Shown: positions 1,227-15,771 of the stretch, piece by piece
Layout of the letters: each line of letters starts with the position of its first letter
How positions within the stretch are numbered: position 1 is the first letter of the stretch
Assembly (NCBI GenBank): GCA_024304985.1
Contig: JAMWZC010000011.1
Span: 1 to 64,000 of the forward strand
Direction of reading: 5' to 3'
Length of the DNA stretch: 64,000 nt
DNA from: Paracoccaceae bacterium
GTDB taxonomy: Bacteria > Pseudomonadota > Alphaproteobacteria > Rhodobacterales > Rhodobacteraceae
Notes under the pieces: model-generated
Seen by the model: only the letters and a program-made list of their open reading frames with translations
The model's database searches: none
Told to the model about the DNA's origin: nothing
Made by a program: the position numbers and the translations under genes

Positions 1227-4200
1227 TCAGCCTTGCAGCGGCATTACGGTGAAATCGCCTTCTTCGCGGGCGCGCATGGCCAGGGCTGCAGCATGGCTAC
1301 CCGCTGCGGTTGTGAAGTAGGGGATCTTGTCGTAAAGCGCGACCTTGCGGATCTCGCGGCTGTCTTCGACGGCCTGCGCGCCTTCGGTCGTGTTCATGAC
1401 CAGCGTGATGCCGCCGTCCTTGAGCATGTCCACCACATTGGGGCGCCCCTCATAGACCTTGTTCACCACGTCGCAGGCGACGCCGTTCTCCTCAAGCCAT
1501 GCGGCGGTGCCGCGTGTGGCGACAATCGTCAGACCCAGCGCCGTGACGATCTGCGCGGCCTCGACCATATCGGCGGTCTTGTCGGCGTCGCGGATCGAGA
1601 TGAACACCTTGCCTTCGCGCGGCAGATCGGTGCCGGCCCCCAACTGCGCCTTGAGGAAGGCGAGCGGGAAGGACACGTCCCAGCCCATCACCTCGCCGGT
1701 CGAGCGCATTTCCGGGCCAAGGATCGTGTCGACGCCGGGGAAGCGGGCGAAGGGCAGCACCGCCTCCTTGACCGAGAACCAAGGCATCGCCGGATCGGCC
1801 AGAGTCAGCGGATCGGCCATGGGCAGGGTGCCGGGCTTGGCGTCCGCAGGATAGGGGCCGCGATGGGGGAAGTTCGACATCGGCTCCCCTGCCATGAGAC
1901 GCGCGGCGATCGAGGCGATGGCGGAATCTGTTGCCTTGGCCACGAAAGGCACGGTGCGCGAGGCGCGGGGGTTCACCTCGATCAGATACACCTCGTCGTC
2001 CTTGATCGCGAATTGCACGTTCATCAGGCCGACAACGCCAAGGGCCAGCGCCAGTGCTTCGGTCTGTTTGTGAACCTCGTCGATGATGTGCCGGGGCAGG
2101 GAGTAGGGGGGCAGCGAACAGGCGCTGTCGCCGGAATGCACACCCGCTTCCTCGATATGCTGCATCAGGCCCGCCACATGCACGGTCTTGCCATCGCAGA
2201 GCGCGTCCACATCCATTTCCACGGCACCTGACAGATAGCTGTCGAGCAGGACGGGGCTGTCGCCCGACACGACCACGGCCTCGCGTATGTAGCGTTCCAG
2301 ATGGGCCATGTCGCGCACGATCTCCATCGCGCGGCCACCCAGCACGTAGGAGGGGCGGATCACCAGCGGGAAGCCGATATCTTCGGCAATGGTCAGCGCC
2401 TGCGCGTCGGTGGAGGCGATGCCGTTGCGCGGCTGTTTCAGACCAAGACGCTGGACAAGCTGCTGGAACCGCTCGCGGTCTTCGGCAAGGTCGATGGCGT
2501 CGGGCGTGGTGCCAAGGATGGGGATACCTTCCTCGTAAAGCGCATTCGCCAGTTTCAGCGGGGTCTGGCCGCCGAACTGGACGATCACGCCGTGCAACGT
2601 GCCGTTGGTCTGTTCGACCCGCAGGATTTCCATCACATGCTCGAAGGTCAGCGGTTCGAAATAGAGCCGGTCCGACGTGTCATAGTCGGTGGACACCGTT
2701 TCCGGGTTGCAGTTGATCATGATGGTTTCATAGCCCACGTCCGACAGCGCAAAGCAGGCGTGGCAGCAGCAATAATCGAACTCGATCCCCTGACCGATGC
2801 GGTTGGGGCCGCCGCCCAGAATGACCACTTTCTTGCGGTCAGAGGGGCGGGCTTCGCATTCCACATCGCCCATCGCGGGGGCCTCATAGGTGGAATACAT
2901 GTAAGGCGTCTGCGCTTCGAACTCGGCGCCGCAGGTGTCGATCCGCTTGAACACGGCATTGACCCCAAGGTTCTGGCGGGCGCGGCGGACGTTCGCTTCG
3001 GTCCGGCCTGTCAGATGGGCCAGACGCGCGTCGGTAAAGCCCATCATCTTGAGCTTGCGCAGACCGTATTCGGTGACAGGCAGGCCCTCGCGGCGCACGA
3101 TGTCCTCGGCCTCGACGATTTCGCGGATACGGGCCAGGAACCACGGATCGAACATGGTGGTCGCGTGGATTTCGTCATCGGTCAGGCCGTGGCGCATGGC
3201 CTGCGCGATGGTGCGCATCCGGTCGGGCGTGGCCTTGGAGATGGCCTTGATCACGGCGGATTTCTCGGGTGCGCCCTCGATCTCGACCTCGTCAAAGCCG
3301 GTCAGGCCGGTTTCCATCGAGGCCAGCGCCTTTTGCAACGATTCGTGGATGGTGCGGCCAATGGCCATCGCCTCGCCCACGGATTTCATCGCGGTGGTCA
3401 GGTTGGGCTGGCTGCCGGGGAATTTCTCAAAGGCGAAGCGGGGGATCTTGGTCACGACATAGTCGATCGTCGGCTCGAAGCTGGCAGGCGTCACCTTGGT
3501 GATGTCATTGTCCAACTCGTCCAGCGTATAGCCCACTGCCAGTTTCGCCGCGATCTTGGCAATCGGGAAACCCGTCGCCTTGGAGGCCAGCGCGGATGAA
3601 CGCGACACACGCGGGTTCATCTCGATCACGACCATGCGGCCATCGGCGGGGTTGATCGCCCATTGCACGTTCGAGCCGCCGGTTTCCACGCCAATCTCGC
3701 GCAGAACGGCGATCGAGCCGTTGCGCATGATCTGATATTCCTTGTCGGTCAGCGTCAGGGCGGGGGCGACGGTGATCGAATCGCCCGTATGCACCCCCAT
3801 CGGATCGACGTTTTCGATCGAGCAGACGATGATGGCGTTGTCGGCCTTGTCGCGGACCACCTCCATCTCGAACTCTTTCCAGCCGAGCAGGGATTCATCG
3901 ACCAGAATCTGCGCCATGGGCGAGGCTTCCAGACCGGACCGGCAGTAATATTCATAATCGTCGCGGTTATAGGCCACGCCACCGCCGGTGCCGCCAAGGG
4001 TGAAGGCAGGTCGGATGATGGCGGGCAGGCCGATCTCTTCCAGCGCGTCCATGGCCTGTTTCAGACCGGCGGCGATATCGTATTTGCCGTTCTCCTTCTT
4101 GGGGGCGGCGACGATGGTGGCCTTGGGGTTCTCCAGACCGATGCGGTCCATCGCTTCGCGGAAAAGTTTGCGATCCTCGGCCATTTCAATGGCCTGACGG

Positions 4201-4556
4201 TTCGCGCCGATCAGTTCCACGCCGAATTTCTCAAGCACGCCCATGTCCGCCAGCGCGAGACTGGTGTTCAGGCCGGTTTGCCCGCCCATCGTGGGCAGCA
4301 GCGCGTCGGGGCGTTCCTTTTCGATGATCTTGGCCACAACCTCGGGGGTGATCGGCTCGATATAGGTGGCGTCGGCCAGACCCGGATCGGTCATGATCGT
4401 CGCGGGGTTCGAGTTGACGAGGATGACCCGGTAGCCTTCCTCGCGCAGCGCCTTGCAGGCTTGCGCGCCGGAATAGTCGAATTCGCAGGCCTGTCCGATC
4501 ACGATGGGACCGGCTCCGATGATCATGATGGAGGAGATATCGGTTCTTTTCGGCAT
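1227..4556 (-). CDS. carB: Carbamoyl-phosphate synthase large subunit
   Basis: 1109 aa, starting [17 protein letters not shown]. The ATG at 4556 was chosen over an in-frame ATG 102 bp further upstream because the family starts here and an AAGGGGA ribosome-binding site lies just before it. The protein makes carbamoyl phosphate from bicarbonate, ammonia (delivered by CarA) and two ATP, feeding arginine and pyrimidine synthesis. Two homologous ATP-grasp halves are visible (about residues 10-400 and 560-930, each with a [10 protein letters not shown] or GAGPIVIGQ type start). They are separated by an oligomerisation region and followed by a C-terminal MGS-like allosteric domain from about 955. 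carA is not in the window. Identity is certain. Confidence 0.97.
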
Positions 4557-4749
4557 GTCGGTCCCCTTATGGCGCGGCGCATCAGGGAGGTGGCGCCCGC
4601 GCGGCAGCATGGCGCAGCGGGGCAGCCCCGCGCGCAAATTCTCGTGGGTTATAGACATCCCAAGATGCGGCGCAAGCCCTGTTTGGCGGTGGAAACTTCG
4701 GTTTTTTCGCAGGGCCCGCAGCCCTTGAATTCATGAATTTGCATACTTA

Positions 4750-4767
4750 TGTCAACTTTGATTGACA
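4750..4767. promoter_or_regulatory. PpsR/CrtJ-type box upstream of bchJ-1
   Basis: The sequence TGTCAACTTTGATTGACA fits the TGT-N12-ACA consensus recognised by the aerobic photosynthesis repressor PpsR/CrtJ. It lies in an A+T-rich gap between carB and the bch cluster, about 115 bp upstream of the leader ORF and 150 bp upstream of bchJ-1. An exact reverse-complement copy lies before bchE at 5550-5567. The consensus match is seen; PpsR binding is inferred. Confidence 0.7.
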
Positions 4768-4880
4768 AGTTCGGGTCATGGTTGGCGTTGCGACGCCGCT
4801 TTTTCCTTTTTAACCCATCTTCGCTTTCGATGAGGAAACTGTCCCGTCCCATCACATGGGCGCGGAGGGAAGGAACCTAC

Positions 4881-4922
4881 ATGGCACCGCCGCTTCGGCA
4901 GCTGCAAGGATATCGACCATGA
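4881..4922 (+). CDS. 13-codon leader ORF coupled to bchJ-1
   Basis: A short ORF encodes MAPPLRQLQGYRP and stops with a TGA that shares an ATGA overlap with the bchJ-1 start at 4919. It has the better ribosome-binding site of the two: a purine run GGAGGGAAGGA at 4864-4874, six bases before its ATG. The downstream bchJ-1 ATG has only a modest AAGGA at 4907-4911. This is the arrangement of a translationally coupled leader peptide. There is no homologue to recognise and no run of a single amino acid that would suggest classical attenuation. Whether it is translated is unknown. Confidence 0.4.
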   Translation: MAPPLRQLQGYRP

Positions 4923-5545
4923 CCGCCCCTACGGCCGGTTTGCTGCGCGCGCCCCGCCGCAAGGGCATGATGGGGTCGCAGACGGTTTTGCCGCTGGTCG
5001 CGGCGGTCGAGCGGAGGCTGGGCACAGAGGCTGTGGCACAGCTTCTGGATGAGGCGCGTTTCCTGCACCTGCCCGATCCGGGCGAGCCCGTGCGTGAACG
5101 GCAGGTGGCGGTTCTGCACCAGTCGCTGCGCCGCAACCATCCCGACACGGCGGAAGAGATTCAGCGCGAGGCAGCCCGCGACGCGGTGGAATGGATCATG
5201 GCCAACCGGATGCCTGCGCGGGCGCGTCTGTTGCTGACGAATATGCCCTATCCTCTGGCCGTCTGGATGCTGGGGCGGCATGCGGTGCAGAACGCCTGGA
5301 CCTTTGGCGGCTCGGGCAAGTTCAGCATTCTGGGGACCAACGAATTCCAGTTGATCGACAACCCGACTGTGCGCGGGGAGCACAGCGCCAGTCCTATCTG
5401 TGTCTGGCACGAGGAATTGTTCCAGCACACTTTCCGCCGGATGGCGCATAGCCGCCTGCGCTGCGTCGAGACGTCCTGCATGGCCGCCGGGGCCGATGCC
5501 TGTCGATTCCGGCTGGAAATGGAGCCCGCCCCCTCGGGCGCTTGA
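4919..5545 (+). CDS. bchJ: BchJ-like V4R domain protein, copy 1
   Basis: 208 aa from the ATG at 4919 (MTAPTAGLLRAPRRKGMMG), preceded by AAGGA. The C-terminal half is a V4R (4-vinyl reductase) domain, with the pattern NAWTFGGSGKF, then CVWHEELFQHTFRRM, then LRCVETSCMAAGADACRF. BchJ was first called a divinyl reductase. Divinyl reduction is now credited to BciA/BciB, and BchJ is thought to help the BchE step, perhaps by handling the porphyrin substrate. It stands 63 bp before bchE, in the same direction. It aligns well with the second copy at 7277, sharing the NAWTF.GSG, C.WH and CVET signatures, but has a longer N terminus. Family is secure; the exact role is not. Confidence 0.85.
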   Translation: MTAPTAGLLRAPRRKGMMGSQTVLPLVAAVERRLGTEAVAQLLDEARFLHLPDPGEPVRERQVAVLHQSLRRNHPDTAEEIQREAARDAVEWIMANRMPARARLLLTNMPYPLAVWMLGRHAVQNAWTFGGSGKFSILGTNEFQLIDNPTVRGEHSASPICVWHEELFQHTFRRMAHSRLRCVETSCMAAGADACRFRLEMEPAPSGA

Positions 5546-5555
5546 TCTGTGTCAA
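5542..5555. promoter_or_regulatory. FnrL-type box overlapping the bchE PpsR site
   Basis: TTGATCTGTGTCAA matches the FNR-family pattern TTGAT-N4-ATCAA at nine of ten fixed positions, with G for A in the second half. It overlaps the bchJ-1 stop codon (TGA at 5543-5545) and runs into the TGT-N12-ACA box. A box of the same form, TTGAT-N4-GTCAA, lies at 15758. FnrL activates bchE-type genes under low oxygen in Rhodobacter, so the position makes sense, but binding is inferred. Confidence 0.5.
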
Positions 5556-5567
5556 TCAAAGTTGACA
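5550..5567. promoter_or_regulatory. PpsR/CrtJ-type box upstream of bchE
   Basis: TGTCAATCAAAGTTGACA fits TGT-N12-ACA and lies 41 bp before the bchE start. It is the exact reverse complement of the box at 4750-4767, so the two flank bchJ-1 in opposite orientation. Two PpsR boxes could allow cooperative or looped repression across bchJ-1. Confidence 0.7.
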
Positions 5568-5608
5568 TTTAATGTGTCAGATTTCCTGAAAATCTCAGGG
5601 AGTCTGCC

Positions 5609-7273
5609 ATGCGCATTCTGTTCGTTCACCCCAATTACCGCTCGGGCGGGGCCGAGATCGCCGGAACCTGGCCGCCTGCCTGGGTGGCCTATCTGACAGG
5701 CAGCCTGCGACGTGCGGGTTTCGACGACATCCATTTCATTGACGCGATGACCGACAATATTGCGGATGACGATCTGGCGCGGCGGATGGCGGCGCTGGAC
5801 CCGGATGTGGTGGGCGTCACCTCGATCACACCGTCGATCTACCGGGCCGAGGACGTCTTGAGGCTGGCGCGCGATCATTGCCCGCGCGCGGTGCGGATGA
5901 TGGGGGGCGTGCATGCGACCTTCATGTTCAAGCAGGTCCTGTCCGAGGCCCCTTGGGTCGATGTGATCGTGCGCGGCGAGGGTGAGGAGATCCTGACCGA
6001 GTTGATGTTGACAGTCGAGGATGGCCGCTGGCCTGCGGATCGTCACAAGATCAAAGGCATTGCCTTTGCGGAAGGTGATCAGATCGTGGCCACGCCCGCC
6101 GCCAGCACGGTCAAGGATCTGGACGGGATTGATCCGGACTGGTCGATTCTGGAGTGGGAGAAATACAAATACATCCCCCTGAACACCCGCGTCGCCATTC
6201 CGAACCTTGCGCGGGGCTGTCCCTTTACCTGTTCATTCTGCTCGCAATGGAAATTCTGGCGCGATTACCGCGTGCGCGATCCGAAAAAGGTCGTGGACGA
6301 GATCGAGAACCTTGTGAACAATCACGGCGTCGGCTTCTTCATCCTTGCCGACGAGGAACCCACGATCAACCGCAAGAAATTCATCGAATTCTGTCAGGAG
6401 TTGATCGACCGTGGCCTGCCGGACCGGGTGAAATGGGGCATCAACACCCGCGTCACCGATATCTACCGCGACAAGGACCTGCTGAAATTCTATCGCAAGG
6501 CGGGGCTGGTGCATGTGTCCCTTGGCACCGAGGCGGCGGCGCAGATGAAGCTGGATATCTTCAACAAGGAGACGAAGGTCGAAGAGAACAAGACCGCGAT
6601 CCGCCTGCTGCGCGAGGCTGATATTCTGGTGGAGGCGCAGTTCATCGTGGGGCTGGACAACGAGACGCCAGAGACGCTGGAAGAAACCTACAAGATGGCC
6701 TGGGACTGGCAGCCCGATCTGGCGAACTGGTCGATGTATACGCCCTGGCCTTTTACCCCATTGTTTCAGGAGTTGAAGGATCAGGTCGAGGTCTTCGATT
6801 TCAGCCGATACAATTTCGTGACGCCCATCATGAAACCTGCCGCCATGACGCGGGGCGAGCTGCTGGACGGGGTGATGAACAATTACCGCCGCTTCTACAT
6901 GAAAAAGGCGCTGTTCCATTACCCGTGGCGCGGCACCGGGTTTCGGCGGCGCTATCTGCTGGGATGCCTGCATGCCTTTCTGAAGGCCGGGTTCGCGCGC
7001 ACCTTCTATGATCTGGGCAAGGTCGGCTATACGGGGCCGCAGTCCAAGAACAAGCTGGATTTCCATTTCGACGAGACCCGCACCATCGCCGAGGCGCAGA
7101 TGGAGGATTGGGAAGCCTCGGCCGACAAGGCCGCGCGGGCTGCCGAACGCCGCGTGGCGCTGCGCGCGCAAGGCAAGGAGCGCGCGGTGGAGCGGGCCAA
7201 GGGGTTCAAGATGCCCAACGGGGCCGAGGTGAAAGCCTGCGGCGGCGGGGCTGATCAGATGGAGGATGTCTGA
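5609..7273 (+). CDS. bchE: Mg-protoporphyrin IX monomethyl ester anaerobic oxidative cyclase
   Basis: 554 aa, the usual BchE length. It forms the fifth (isocyclic) ring of bacteriochlorophyll without oxygen, using cobalamin and radical-SAM chemistry with the keto oxygen coming from water. The N-terminal ~130 residues form a B12-binding fold ([10 protein letters not shown], then [10 protein letters not shown] and MMGGVHATF). The radical-SAM Fe-S motif CX3CX2C is C204-C208-C211 (CPFTCSFC). The C-terminal tail is charged and helical. The start ATG at 5609 has GGGAG just upstream. The two bchJ copies lie on either side, bchJ-2 only 3 bp after the stop, so bchE-bchJ-2 is an operon. Candidate PpsR and FnrL boxes precede it. 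bchG, which follows bchEJ in Rhodobacter capsulatus, is absent here. Confidence 0.93.
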
Positions 7274-7276
7274 TCC

Positions 7277-7864
7277 ATGCAGGTGCCGGGGACGGGGCTG
7301 ATCGGGCCGAATGCGGTGCTGCAACTGGTGCCGCTGCTGGACCGGGCGGGCGGGTCTGACTGGCGCGCGGTGCTGATGGCGCAAGCGGGGATTGCGGCGC
7401 TGCCCGATGGCAGCGGCATGATCCCCGAAGGTCCCGTGGCGCGGCTGCATCAGGCGATGCGCCGCGACCGGCCCGATCTGGCGCCGGGCCTTGGCTGGAA
7501 GGCAGGGCTGGCGACGGGAGATTACATTCTGGCCCATCGCATCCCGCGGGCTGTGCAAATGCTGCTGAGGGCGCTGCCGTGGCGGATCTCGGCGCGGGTG
7601 CTGTCACAGGCGATTGCCCGCAATGCCTGGACCTTCGCCGGATCAGGGCAGTTTCTTGTGATCACGCCGCAGGTGTTCGAACTGCGCGCCAACCCCCTGT
7701 TGCGGGGCGAGGTGGCGGATCATCCGGTCTGCGACTGGCACCGGGGCGTCTTTACGCGGCTCTATCAGCGCCTTGTTCATCCGGCCCTGACCTGTGTCGA
7801 GACACGCTGTTGCGCCATGGGGCATGCCTCCTGTCGGTTCGAGATGCGCCGGGATACACGCTGA
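7277..7864 (+). CDS. bchJ: BchJ-like V4R domain protein, copy 2
   Basis: 195 aa, starting 3 bp after bchE with GGAGGA upstream. Like copy 1 it ends in a V4R domain: NAWTFAGSGQF, then CDWHRGVFTRLYQRL, then LTCVETRCCAMGHASCRFEM. Both copies keep the two C-terminal Cys clusters (CVETxCC or CVETSC, then CRF). The N-terminal helical part (LIGPNAVLQLVPLLDRAGG) is typical of BchJ. By gene order this is the classical bchE-bchJ partner, which makes copy 1 the extra one. Family is secure. Whether the two differ in function, for example by forming a heterodimer, cannot be told from the sequence. Confidence 0.87.
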   Translation: MQVPGTGLIGPNAVLQLVPLLDRAGGSDWRAVLMAQAGIAALPDGSGMIPEGPVARLHQAMRRDRPDLAPGLGWKAGLATGDYILAHRIPRAVQMLLRALPWRISARVLSQAIARNAWTFAGSGQFLVITPQVFELRANPLLRGEVADHPVCDWHRGVFTRLYQRLVHPALTCVETRCCAMGHASCRFEMRRDTR

Positions 7865-7950: not shown

Positions 7951-9738
7951 ATGCACGCCTATCGCAGCCATACCTGCGCCGCTTTGAACATCTCTCACGT
8001 GGGCCAGACGGTCCGCCTGTCCGGCTGGGTGCACCGCGTGCGCGACCATGGCGGCATCCTGTTCATCGACCTGCGCGATCATTACGGCATCACGCAGGTG
8101 CTGTGCGACCCCGACAGCCCGGTGTTTGCGCAGGTGGAAAAGGTGCGTTCCGAATGGTGCATCCGCATCGACGGCGAGGTGAAGGCGCGCGATGCGTCAC
8201 TGGTGAACCCCAAGATCCCCACCGGCGAGGTCGAGGTATTCATTCGTGATATCGAGGTGCTGGGGGCCGCGAAAGAACTGCCGCTGATGGTCTTTGGCGA
8301 TCAGGAATACCCCGAAGAAACGCGCCTGCGCTACCGCTTCCTTGATCTGCGGCGCGAGGCGATGCAGCGCAACATGACGCTACGTTCGGACGTGGTGGCG
8401 TCCATGCGCAAACGCATGTGGGACAAGGGTTTCCGCGAATATCAGACGCCGATCATCACCGCCTCCAGCCCCGAAGGCGCGCGGGATTTTCTGGTGCCCA
8501 GCCGTCTGCATCCGGGCAAATTCTATGCCCTGCCGCAAGCCCCGCAGCAGTTCAAGCAACTGCTGATGGTGTCGGGCTTCGATCGGTATTTCCAGATCGC
8601 ACCCTGTTTCCGCGACGAGGACCCGCGCGCCGACCGCAGCCCCACGGATTTCTATCAGCTTGACATGGAGATGTCCTTTGTCACGCAGCAGGATGTGTTC
8701 GACACGATCTCGCCCGTGATCGCAGGTGTGTTCGAGGAGTTCGGCGGGGGGCGCAAGGTAGATGCGCCGCAGGATTGGCCGCAGATTTCCTATCGCGATT
8801 CCGCGCTGTGGTATGGCACCGACAAGCCCGACCTGCGCAACCCCATCAGGATGCAGGTCGTGTCCGAGCATTTCGCGGGGTCTGGCTTTGCCATTTTCGC
8901 CAAACTGCTGGAGCAGGAGGGCACCCAGATCCGCGCCATCCCCGCCCCCGGTGGCGGCAGCCGCAAATTCTGCGACCGGATGAACGCCTTTGCCCAGAAG
9001 GAAGGTCTGCCGGGCATGGGATACATCTTCTGGCGCGAGGCCGAGGATGGATCGGGCATGGAAGCAGCCGGTCCGCTGGCCAAGAACATCGGACCGGAGC
9101 GGACCGAGGCGATCCGCCAGCAGCTTGGTCTGGGCGTAGGAGATGCGGCCTTCTTCCTGGGTGGCAAGCCCAAGCAGTTCGAAAGCGTGGCAGGCAAGGC
9201 GCGTACCGTCATTGGCGAGGAACTGGGCCTCACCGACAAGGACCGGTTCGCCTTTGCTTGGATCGTCGACTTCCCGATCTACGAGCAGGACGCGGAAACC
9301 GGCAAGATCGACTTCGAGCATAACCCCTTCTCCATGCCGCAGGGCGGGATGGAGGCGCTGATGGGCGATCCCTTGGCCGTGCGCGGGTTCCAGTATGATC
9401 TGGCCTGCAACGGCTATGAGCTGGTGTCGGGGGCGATCCGTAATCATAAGCCCGAGATCATGTTCAAAGCCTTCGAGATTGCAGGCTATGGCAAGGACGA
9501 GGTCGAGAAGCGCTTTGGCGGCATGGTCAACGCCTTCCAATATGGTGCGCCGCCCCATGGTGGCTGTGCGGCAGGGATCGACCGGATCGTCATGCTGCTG
9601 GCCGACGAGGCGAATATCCGCGAGGTGATCTTGTTCCCGATGAACCAGCGGGCCGAGGACCTGATGATGGGCGCGCCCAGCGAGCCGCTGAGCCAGCAGT
9701 TGATGGAACTCAACCTGCGCGTGATCCCGCAGGATTGA
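7951..9738 (+). CDS. aspS: Aspartyl-tRNA synthetase
   Basis: 595 aa class II synthetase, the usual bacterial length. An N-terminal OB-fold anticodon-binding domain (about 1-110, [26 protein letters not shown]) precedes the catalytic domain. Motif 2 is [24 protein letters not shown] (about 215-240), a GAD insertion follows (about 290-420), and motif 3 is near the C terminus (GIDRIVMLL). It charges tRNA-Asp. In alphaproteobacteria lacking AsnRS it is often non-discriminating and also mischarges tRNA-Asn for the GatCAB route; this was not tested here. GAAGGGA lies ahead of the ATG. Confidence 0.97.
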
Positions 9739-15757: not shown

Positions 15758-15771
15758 TTGATTCAGGTCAA
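15758..15771. promoter_or_regulatory. FnrL-type box upstream of the DUF6455 triplet
   Basis: TTGATTCAGGTCAA fits TTGAT-N4-(A/G)TCAA and lies 78 bp before the first DUF6455 start. It has the same second half-site (GTCAA) as the box before bchE. It suggests induction when oxygen is low; binding is inferred. Confidence 0.55.

Follow-up and report, generated by a model that had tools for sequence, protein, structure and literature searches.

Operators of the PpsR/CrtJ type are described as paired, closely spaced TGT-N12-ACA palindromes before bch genes. For bchC of R. capsulatus, two CrtJ palindromes were reported at -47 to -30 and -21 to -4 with a gap of 8 bp (PMC5362033), gaps of 8 and 9 bp have been published for PpsR/CrtJ site pairs (PMC4452267), and the region upstream of bchEJ in R. 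sphaeroides was bound by PpsR in ChIP-seq with a 21.9-fold enrichment (PMC4344238). The bchE promoter of R. sphaeroides also carries an FnrL/CrpK site, the -57 element, and mutation of the T of TCAA at -57 lowered the FnrL-driven activity by about 90% (PMC4263372). The sequence of this FnrL site was given as TTGACatgcATCAA (PMC2908626), and the FnrL consensus TTGAY-N4-RTCAA appears in the tables of PMC2908626 and PMC4634722. In R. capsulatus, oxygen made little difference to the CrtJ peaks at bchE (PMC5362033), and the bchEJGP transcripts of R. sphaeroides were raised by deletion of fnrL, though reporter fusions indicated activation (PMC4263372); these observations argue against a simple on-off exchange of the two proteins in those species. 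Both bchE and bchJ have been classed as additional photosynthesis genes which are missing in some species (PMC6052148), and the loss of photosynthesis replicons has been proposed as a route to non-phototrophs (PMC6739100).

The locus analyzed here lies in the window, a stretch of 64,000 nucleotides from a Paracoccaceae bacterium whose genome assembly comprises 3,760,603 bases in 13 contigs with a completeness of 98.3%. Four genes run rightward from the divergent neighbour carB (1227-4658, minus strand, PRK05294 1715.3 bits): a BchJ-like gene with a V4R domain (4919-5545, plus strand, PF02830), an intact bchE encoding the anaerobic Mg-protoporphyrin IX monomethyl ester cyclase (5609-7273, plus strand, TIGR02026 828.7 bits), bchJ proper (7277-7864, plus strand) and aspS (7951-9738). 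The BchJ-like gene, called bchJ-1 in the first-pass annotation, and bchJ scored 115.5 and 170.5 bits against TIGR02019, both above the curated cut-off of 74.3 bits. The true start of carB is probably near 4556, judging from the alignment of congeners. On the carB side, a block at 4638-4680 (plus strand GGGTTATAGACATCCC) was kept in the congeners, and the part GGGTTATAG of it was also kept in several other genera; by eye, the block reads as a candidate carB promoter on the minus strand, separate from the sites described below. A carB match starting no more than about 430 nt upstream of bchE was found in 9 of 80 bchE loci, without an intervening BchJ-like gene.

Two 18-mers flank the BchJ-like gene, box 1 (TGTCAACTTTGATTGACA, 4750-4767, plus strand) upstream of it and box 2 (TGTCAATCAAAGTTGACA, 5550-5567, plus strand) downstream of it. 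As the first-pass annotation had reported, both are exact TGT-N12-ACA matches and exact reverse complements of each other, and their starts lie 800 bp apart on either side of the gene. At three mismatches or fewer, the window held just these two boxes, compared with a mean of 0.01 in shuffled sequences. In the assembly, TGTCAA-N6-TTGACA occurred exactly at two places only, boxes 1 and 2, and with at most one mismatch at six sites including both, against one site for the reversed control pattern. The presence of the two sites is far beyond chance. Three features had been overlooked in the first reading: a third box 7 bp past box 2, an FnrL-type site overlapping box 2, and the near-palindromy of each box on its own. 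Since 6 of 9 base pairs are palindromic in each box, the "orientation" of the two boxes concerns the inner six bases only.

The control region of bchE was found to contain a compact group of sites. The FnrL-type site TTGATCTGTGTCAA at 5542-5555 (plus strand) matched TTGAY-N4-RTCAA exactly, its final six bases double as the left half of box 2, and the T of its TCAA at 5552 is located at -57 from the bchE start at 5609. The BchJ-like gene ends within this site, with which its stop codon overlaps (5542-5545), and the bchE control region begins inside the end of that gene. The sole other TTGAY-N4-RTCAA match in the window was TTGATTCAGGTCAA at 15758-15771. Box 3 (TGTCAGATTTCCTGAAAA, 5575-5592, plus strand), the proximal PpsR-type box, is degenerate and matched 5 of the 6 outer bases, with AAA for ACA; it was present with the same 7-bp gap in the window and four congeners. 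The designation of boxes 1 and 2 as PpsR-type in the first-pass annotation held for the type of site, and PpsR itself was not found in the genome, as detailed below. The assignment of boxes 1 and 2 as predicted PpsR-type operator sites is well supported by the conserved position before bchE, the TGT-N12-ACA pattern, the second site at 7 bp and the ChIP-seq binding upstream of bchEJ in R. sphaeroides. The sequence, position and conservation of these sites, and the gene content of the assembly, were directly observed.

This arrangement was widely shared among bchE loci. A TGT-N12-ACA-type box was located within 110 nt upstream of bchE in 69 of the 80 loci, and 78 of them (all except L079 and L082) had TTGAY-N4-RTCAA in the 140 nt before bchE, compared with 302 of 20,000 random windows from the same loci. 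When the upstream regions of the window, the congeners G198 and G203, and the 78 loci with an FnrL-type site were aligned (81 in total), a fixed layout was revealed, with the distal box beginning 8 nt and the proximal box 32-34 nt past the start of the FnrL-type palindrome. Full TGT-N12-ACA boxes occupied 37 of the 81 distal slots and 59 of the proximal ones, and ACA was present in 41 rows at the distal offset and in 48 at the main proximal offset, against 0-7 rows at any other offset between 14 and 49. A quick BchE tree, many of whose branches were poorly supported, required at least 18 changes for the distal box and 10 for the proximal box, and at least 15 for the distal-box ACA at exactly that offset. 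Dependence between the slots was also evaluated. The raw counts in the 78 loci were 17/17 against 42/2 for the distal versus the proximal box, and 34/4 against 19/21 for TGT versus ACA of the distal slot. Both associations were strong in the raw counts and not significant on kinship-independent pairs, of which too few were supported for significance to be reached.

The composite of FnrL-type site and distal box was complete in 37 of the 81 upstream regions. The FnrL site of R. sphaeroides does not provide the TGT for such an overlap, and the shared half-site is thus confined to part of the set. No description of a half-site shared by FnrL and PpsR was met in the available parts of PMC4263372, PMC2908626 and PMC4634722 or in a non-exhaustive literature search. 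We tentatively propose, at somewhat under even odds for the two parts jointly, that in part of the Roseobacter group the right end of the FnrL site doubles as the left half-site of the distal PpsR box, which would render activator and repressor mutually exclusive, and that here the chromosomal target has stayed intact and the plasmid-type repressor cluster has gone.

The genus was represented by seven genomes, in five of which a bchE match was detected: the window genome, G198, G203, L005 (Seohaeicola saemankumensis) and L006. The two genomes without a bchE match were 72% and 84% complete. Both boxes were conserved in position in all five. Counted from the start of bchE, box 2 stood at -59 and box 1 at -859 to -856, and the spacing was 797-800 bp, which indicated that both boxes predate the window species. 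Box 1 and inverted box 2 differed at no position in the window, at 3 in G198, 2 in G203, 2 in L005 and 4 in L006. These differences fell in the inner six bases, except for two of the four in L006, where two outer bases are altered; otherwise the half-sites were fully retained. The exact 18-bp identity is thus private to the window species among those compared.

The congeners bear directly on the suggestion of selection acting over all 18 bases, which might be, for instance, the sequence that PpsR binds best. The exact identity in the window species and the presence of only two perfect sites genome-wide would agree with it, and comparison with relatives had been named beforehand as a check that could refute it. 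In each of the four congeners the inner bases differed between the two boxes, and the outer parts were kept almost entirely (L006 aside, without change) as the inner bases varied, the very outcome that had been named as refuting. A wider set told the same. From 69 of the 80 bchE loci, 74 boxes were collected, including 20 with the strict halves TGTCAA and TTGACA; the inner hexamers of the strict boxes were many and diverse, and none of the 74 boxes matched the 18-mer of the window. Selection on the entire 18-mer is accordingly very improbable.

The probability of the identity was estimated from the same boxes. A column model built from the 20 strict boxes gave about 0.5% (0.55%) for identity in either orientation. 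Among the 190 pairs of strict boxes, 7 were identical, 3 directly and 4 in inverted orientation; the 4 inverted pairs all trace back to two sequences that are inverses of each other, each present at two loci, and some of the loci behind the strict boxes are close kin. An exact identity of two good boxes is uncommon, yet no special cause is required for it. It had also been suggested that the bchE control region was duplicated and inverted to give box 1, in keeping with the opposite orientation and the identity. This origin was not borne out by the flanks, which were compared in both orientations: the shared stretch covered only 18-19 bp, and 29 of 120 bases outside the boxes were equal in the inverted comparison, which is the chance level. 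Moreover, a motif scan detected no FnrL-type site beside box 1, no convincing second site was seen by eye at a 7-bp gap from it, and both boxes are older than the window species. Such an origin is hardly credible. Coincidence is the likeliest source of the exact inverted match between the two boxes, which carries no special meaning on present evidence.

The surroundings of box 1 were distinct from those of the bchE operator. Of the 80 loci, only L005 and L006, both congeners, had the BchJ-like gene upstream of bchE; the window, G198 and G203 had it there as well, and it had 208 codons in all five genomes. Among 149 family genomes, including that of the window, two separate full-length matches to the BchJ-like protein were obtained only in the window genome, and G022 showed two adjoining pieces of one match. 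A quick tree built from 85 BchJ-type proteins grouped the five upstream copies in a single clade (SH-aLRT 100), well apart from all others, which makes a recent tandem copy of the adjoining bchJ unlikely as the origin of the gene. The BchJ-like gene is a paralogue seen solely in the window's genus within the sets searched. Behind box 1, the alignment of the five congeners, window included, revealed a conserved block at 4768-4813 (plus strand), which had 6-8 mismatches over 46 positions in L006 and L005. In the bchE upstream regions of 12 loci from other genera the block was not found, the mismatches there numbering 23 or more. A terminator-like hairpin at 4783-4798 followed by a T run lies within the block, and the scan that found this one hairpin yielded 1.3 in shuffled sequences, which is the chance level. 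No sigma-70 promoter was found in 4540-5640 by a consensus scan.

The inverted identity had also raised the idea of DNA looping, in which PpsR tetramers on boxes 1 and 2 would meet, loop out the 800 bp with the BchJ-like gene and repress both promoters jointly. A precedent exists elsewhere, as looping of CrtJ between distant sites has been called likely in R. capsulatus (PMC9144470), and both boxes with a spacing of 797-800 bp were kept in the window and four congeners. This spacing follows from the length of the gene, which is constant in all five. Box 2 already has a nearby partner site, and equal sequences are not needed for looping. Besides, only 7 of 78 other loci carried any TGT-N12-ACA palindrome from more than 130 to 1600 nt upstream, none with TGTCAA and TTGACA halves. 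Looping is improbable here, and nothing in the sequence calls for it.

The genome was searched for PpsR. The best matches to TIGR02040 scored 19.9 and 18.7 bits, far below the cut-off of 275.4, and no match was obtained at an E value of 1e-20 either. The reaction-centre proteins (PufLM, PF00124) were also not found in the window genome. PpsR was present in all six other congeners and PufLM in three of them; the three without PufLM were 72%, 84% and 97% complete. Across 50 genomes, the window's own plus the genomes behind 49 of the 80 loci, PF00124 was detected in 46 and PpsR in 45. Among the 49, the bchE-bearing genomes of L007, L011 and L032 (two metagenome bins and Roseobacter sp. WL0113) had neither a PpsR nor a PufLM match, and the genome of L040 had PufLM without a PpsR match.

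Part of the photosynthesis cluster of G198, 29.6 kb together, was searched against the window genome. The 20-kb stretch gave only matches of at most 200 bases at 68-84%, and the 9.6-kb stretch gave no match. A search of the same kind with the flanking carnitine genes obtained matches at 76-83%, which demonstrated that the method works on this genome. On a large contig of the window genome (G000:C7:490258-497891), the genes that flank hemA and the cluster in G198, carnitine 3-dehydrogenase among them, were located without hemA or the cluster alongside. The dN/dS of bchE against G198 was 0.036, and the dN to L005 was 0.045 for the window and 0.044 for G198, indicating that the window protein changed no faster than that of G198. 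Because bchE is intact and constrained, either the loss was recent or the cluster is missing from the assembly only. The PpsR-type boxes are thus without a known reader in the assembly, through recent loss or because of an unassembled plasmid-type cluster.

That the window species is a normal phototroph whose ppsR cluster is merely missing from the assembly is a serious possibility, though rather less than an even bet. The presence of PpsR in every other congener, the unhurried change of the bchE protein and the plasmid-like order of the G198 cluster speak for it; the completeness of 98.3% in 13 contigs and the lack of a clear fragment from the two G198 cluster stretches searched speak against it. 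It is compatible with the reading preferred here.

Taken together, we consider it probable, at roughly 0.75, that boxes 2 and 3 form an ordinary tandem bchE operator with an overlapping FnrL site, that box 1 is separate, that the identity arose by chance, and that the boxes are relics or belong with a missing plasmid-type replicon. Boxes 2 and 3 would be a tandem PpsR/CrtJ-type operator over the bchE-bchJ promoter, and the overlapping FnrL-type activator site has its right end in common with the left half of box 2. In a cell with PpsR, the repressor would occupy both boxes and keep transcription low in the presence of oxygen, and binding and activation by FnrL would be expected when oxygen is scarce. 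The two proteins could hardly share box 2 and would exclude each other, and this binding, repression, activation and exclusion are predicted from the arrangement of the sites. Repression via PpsR is impossible in the strain as assembled, since no PpsR was found. Box 1 would be a lone PpsR-type site serving the BchJ-like gene, which this genus has in the interval from carB to bchE, and the inverted identity would be a chance convergence of the same half-sites with similar A/T-rich cores. In the sequenced strain, the boxes may be relics, or partners of a plasmid-type replicon absent from the assembly. Against this reading stand the lack of a PpsR match, the missing second site of box 1, the negative consensus scan for a sigma-70 promoter, the slot associations that were lost once kinship was allowed for, and the CrtJ peaks of R. 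capsulatus and bchEJGP transcripts of R. sphaeroides that do not fit a simple exchange.

In this way, the tempting clue of an exact inverted identity is removed, and a testable promoter grammar of FnrL-type site, distal box and proximal box takes its place across some 80 bchE loci. Of greater interest are the bases that box 2 shares with the FnrL-type site, and a genome assembly in which PpsR was not found. With an intact, constrained bchE, intact PpsR-type boxes, and PpsR and reaction centre not found, the window species is a natural case for the fate of operators after loss of a regulator encoded in a separate cluster.

The photosynthesis plasmids of the Roseobacter group (R. litoralis, R. 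ponti, Tateyamaria omphalii and Thalassococcus sp. S3) were compared with the G198 contig, on which a ParB-like gene comes after bchD-bchO, as on R. ponti p1. Unlike in these plasmids, no such cluster was found in the window genome, and bchE-bchJ lies elsewhere, beside carB. Like the PpsR/CrtJ operators of R. capsulatus bchC and R. sphaeroides bchEJ, the window has paired, close TGT-N12-ACA sites before bch genes, here with a gap of 7 bp. It differs from them in the degenerate proximal site, in having another, unpaired box 800 bp farther upstream, ahead of a second BchJ-like gene, and in that ppsR was not found in the genome. The FnrL-type site of the window resembles the FnrL/CrpK site of R. 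sphaeroides bchE, an FNR-type palindrome with the T of TCAA likewise at -57 from the start codon (PMC4263372). As published, the R. sphaeroides site offers no TGT for an overlapping box at this offset, whereas the window site shares its right end with box 2.
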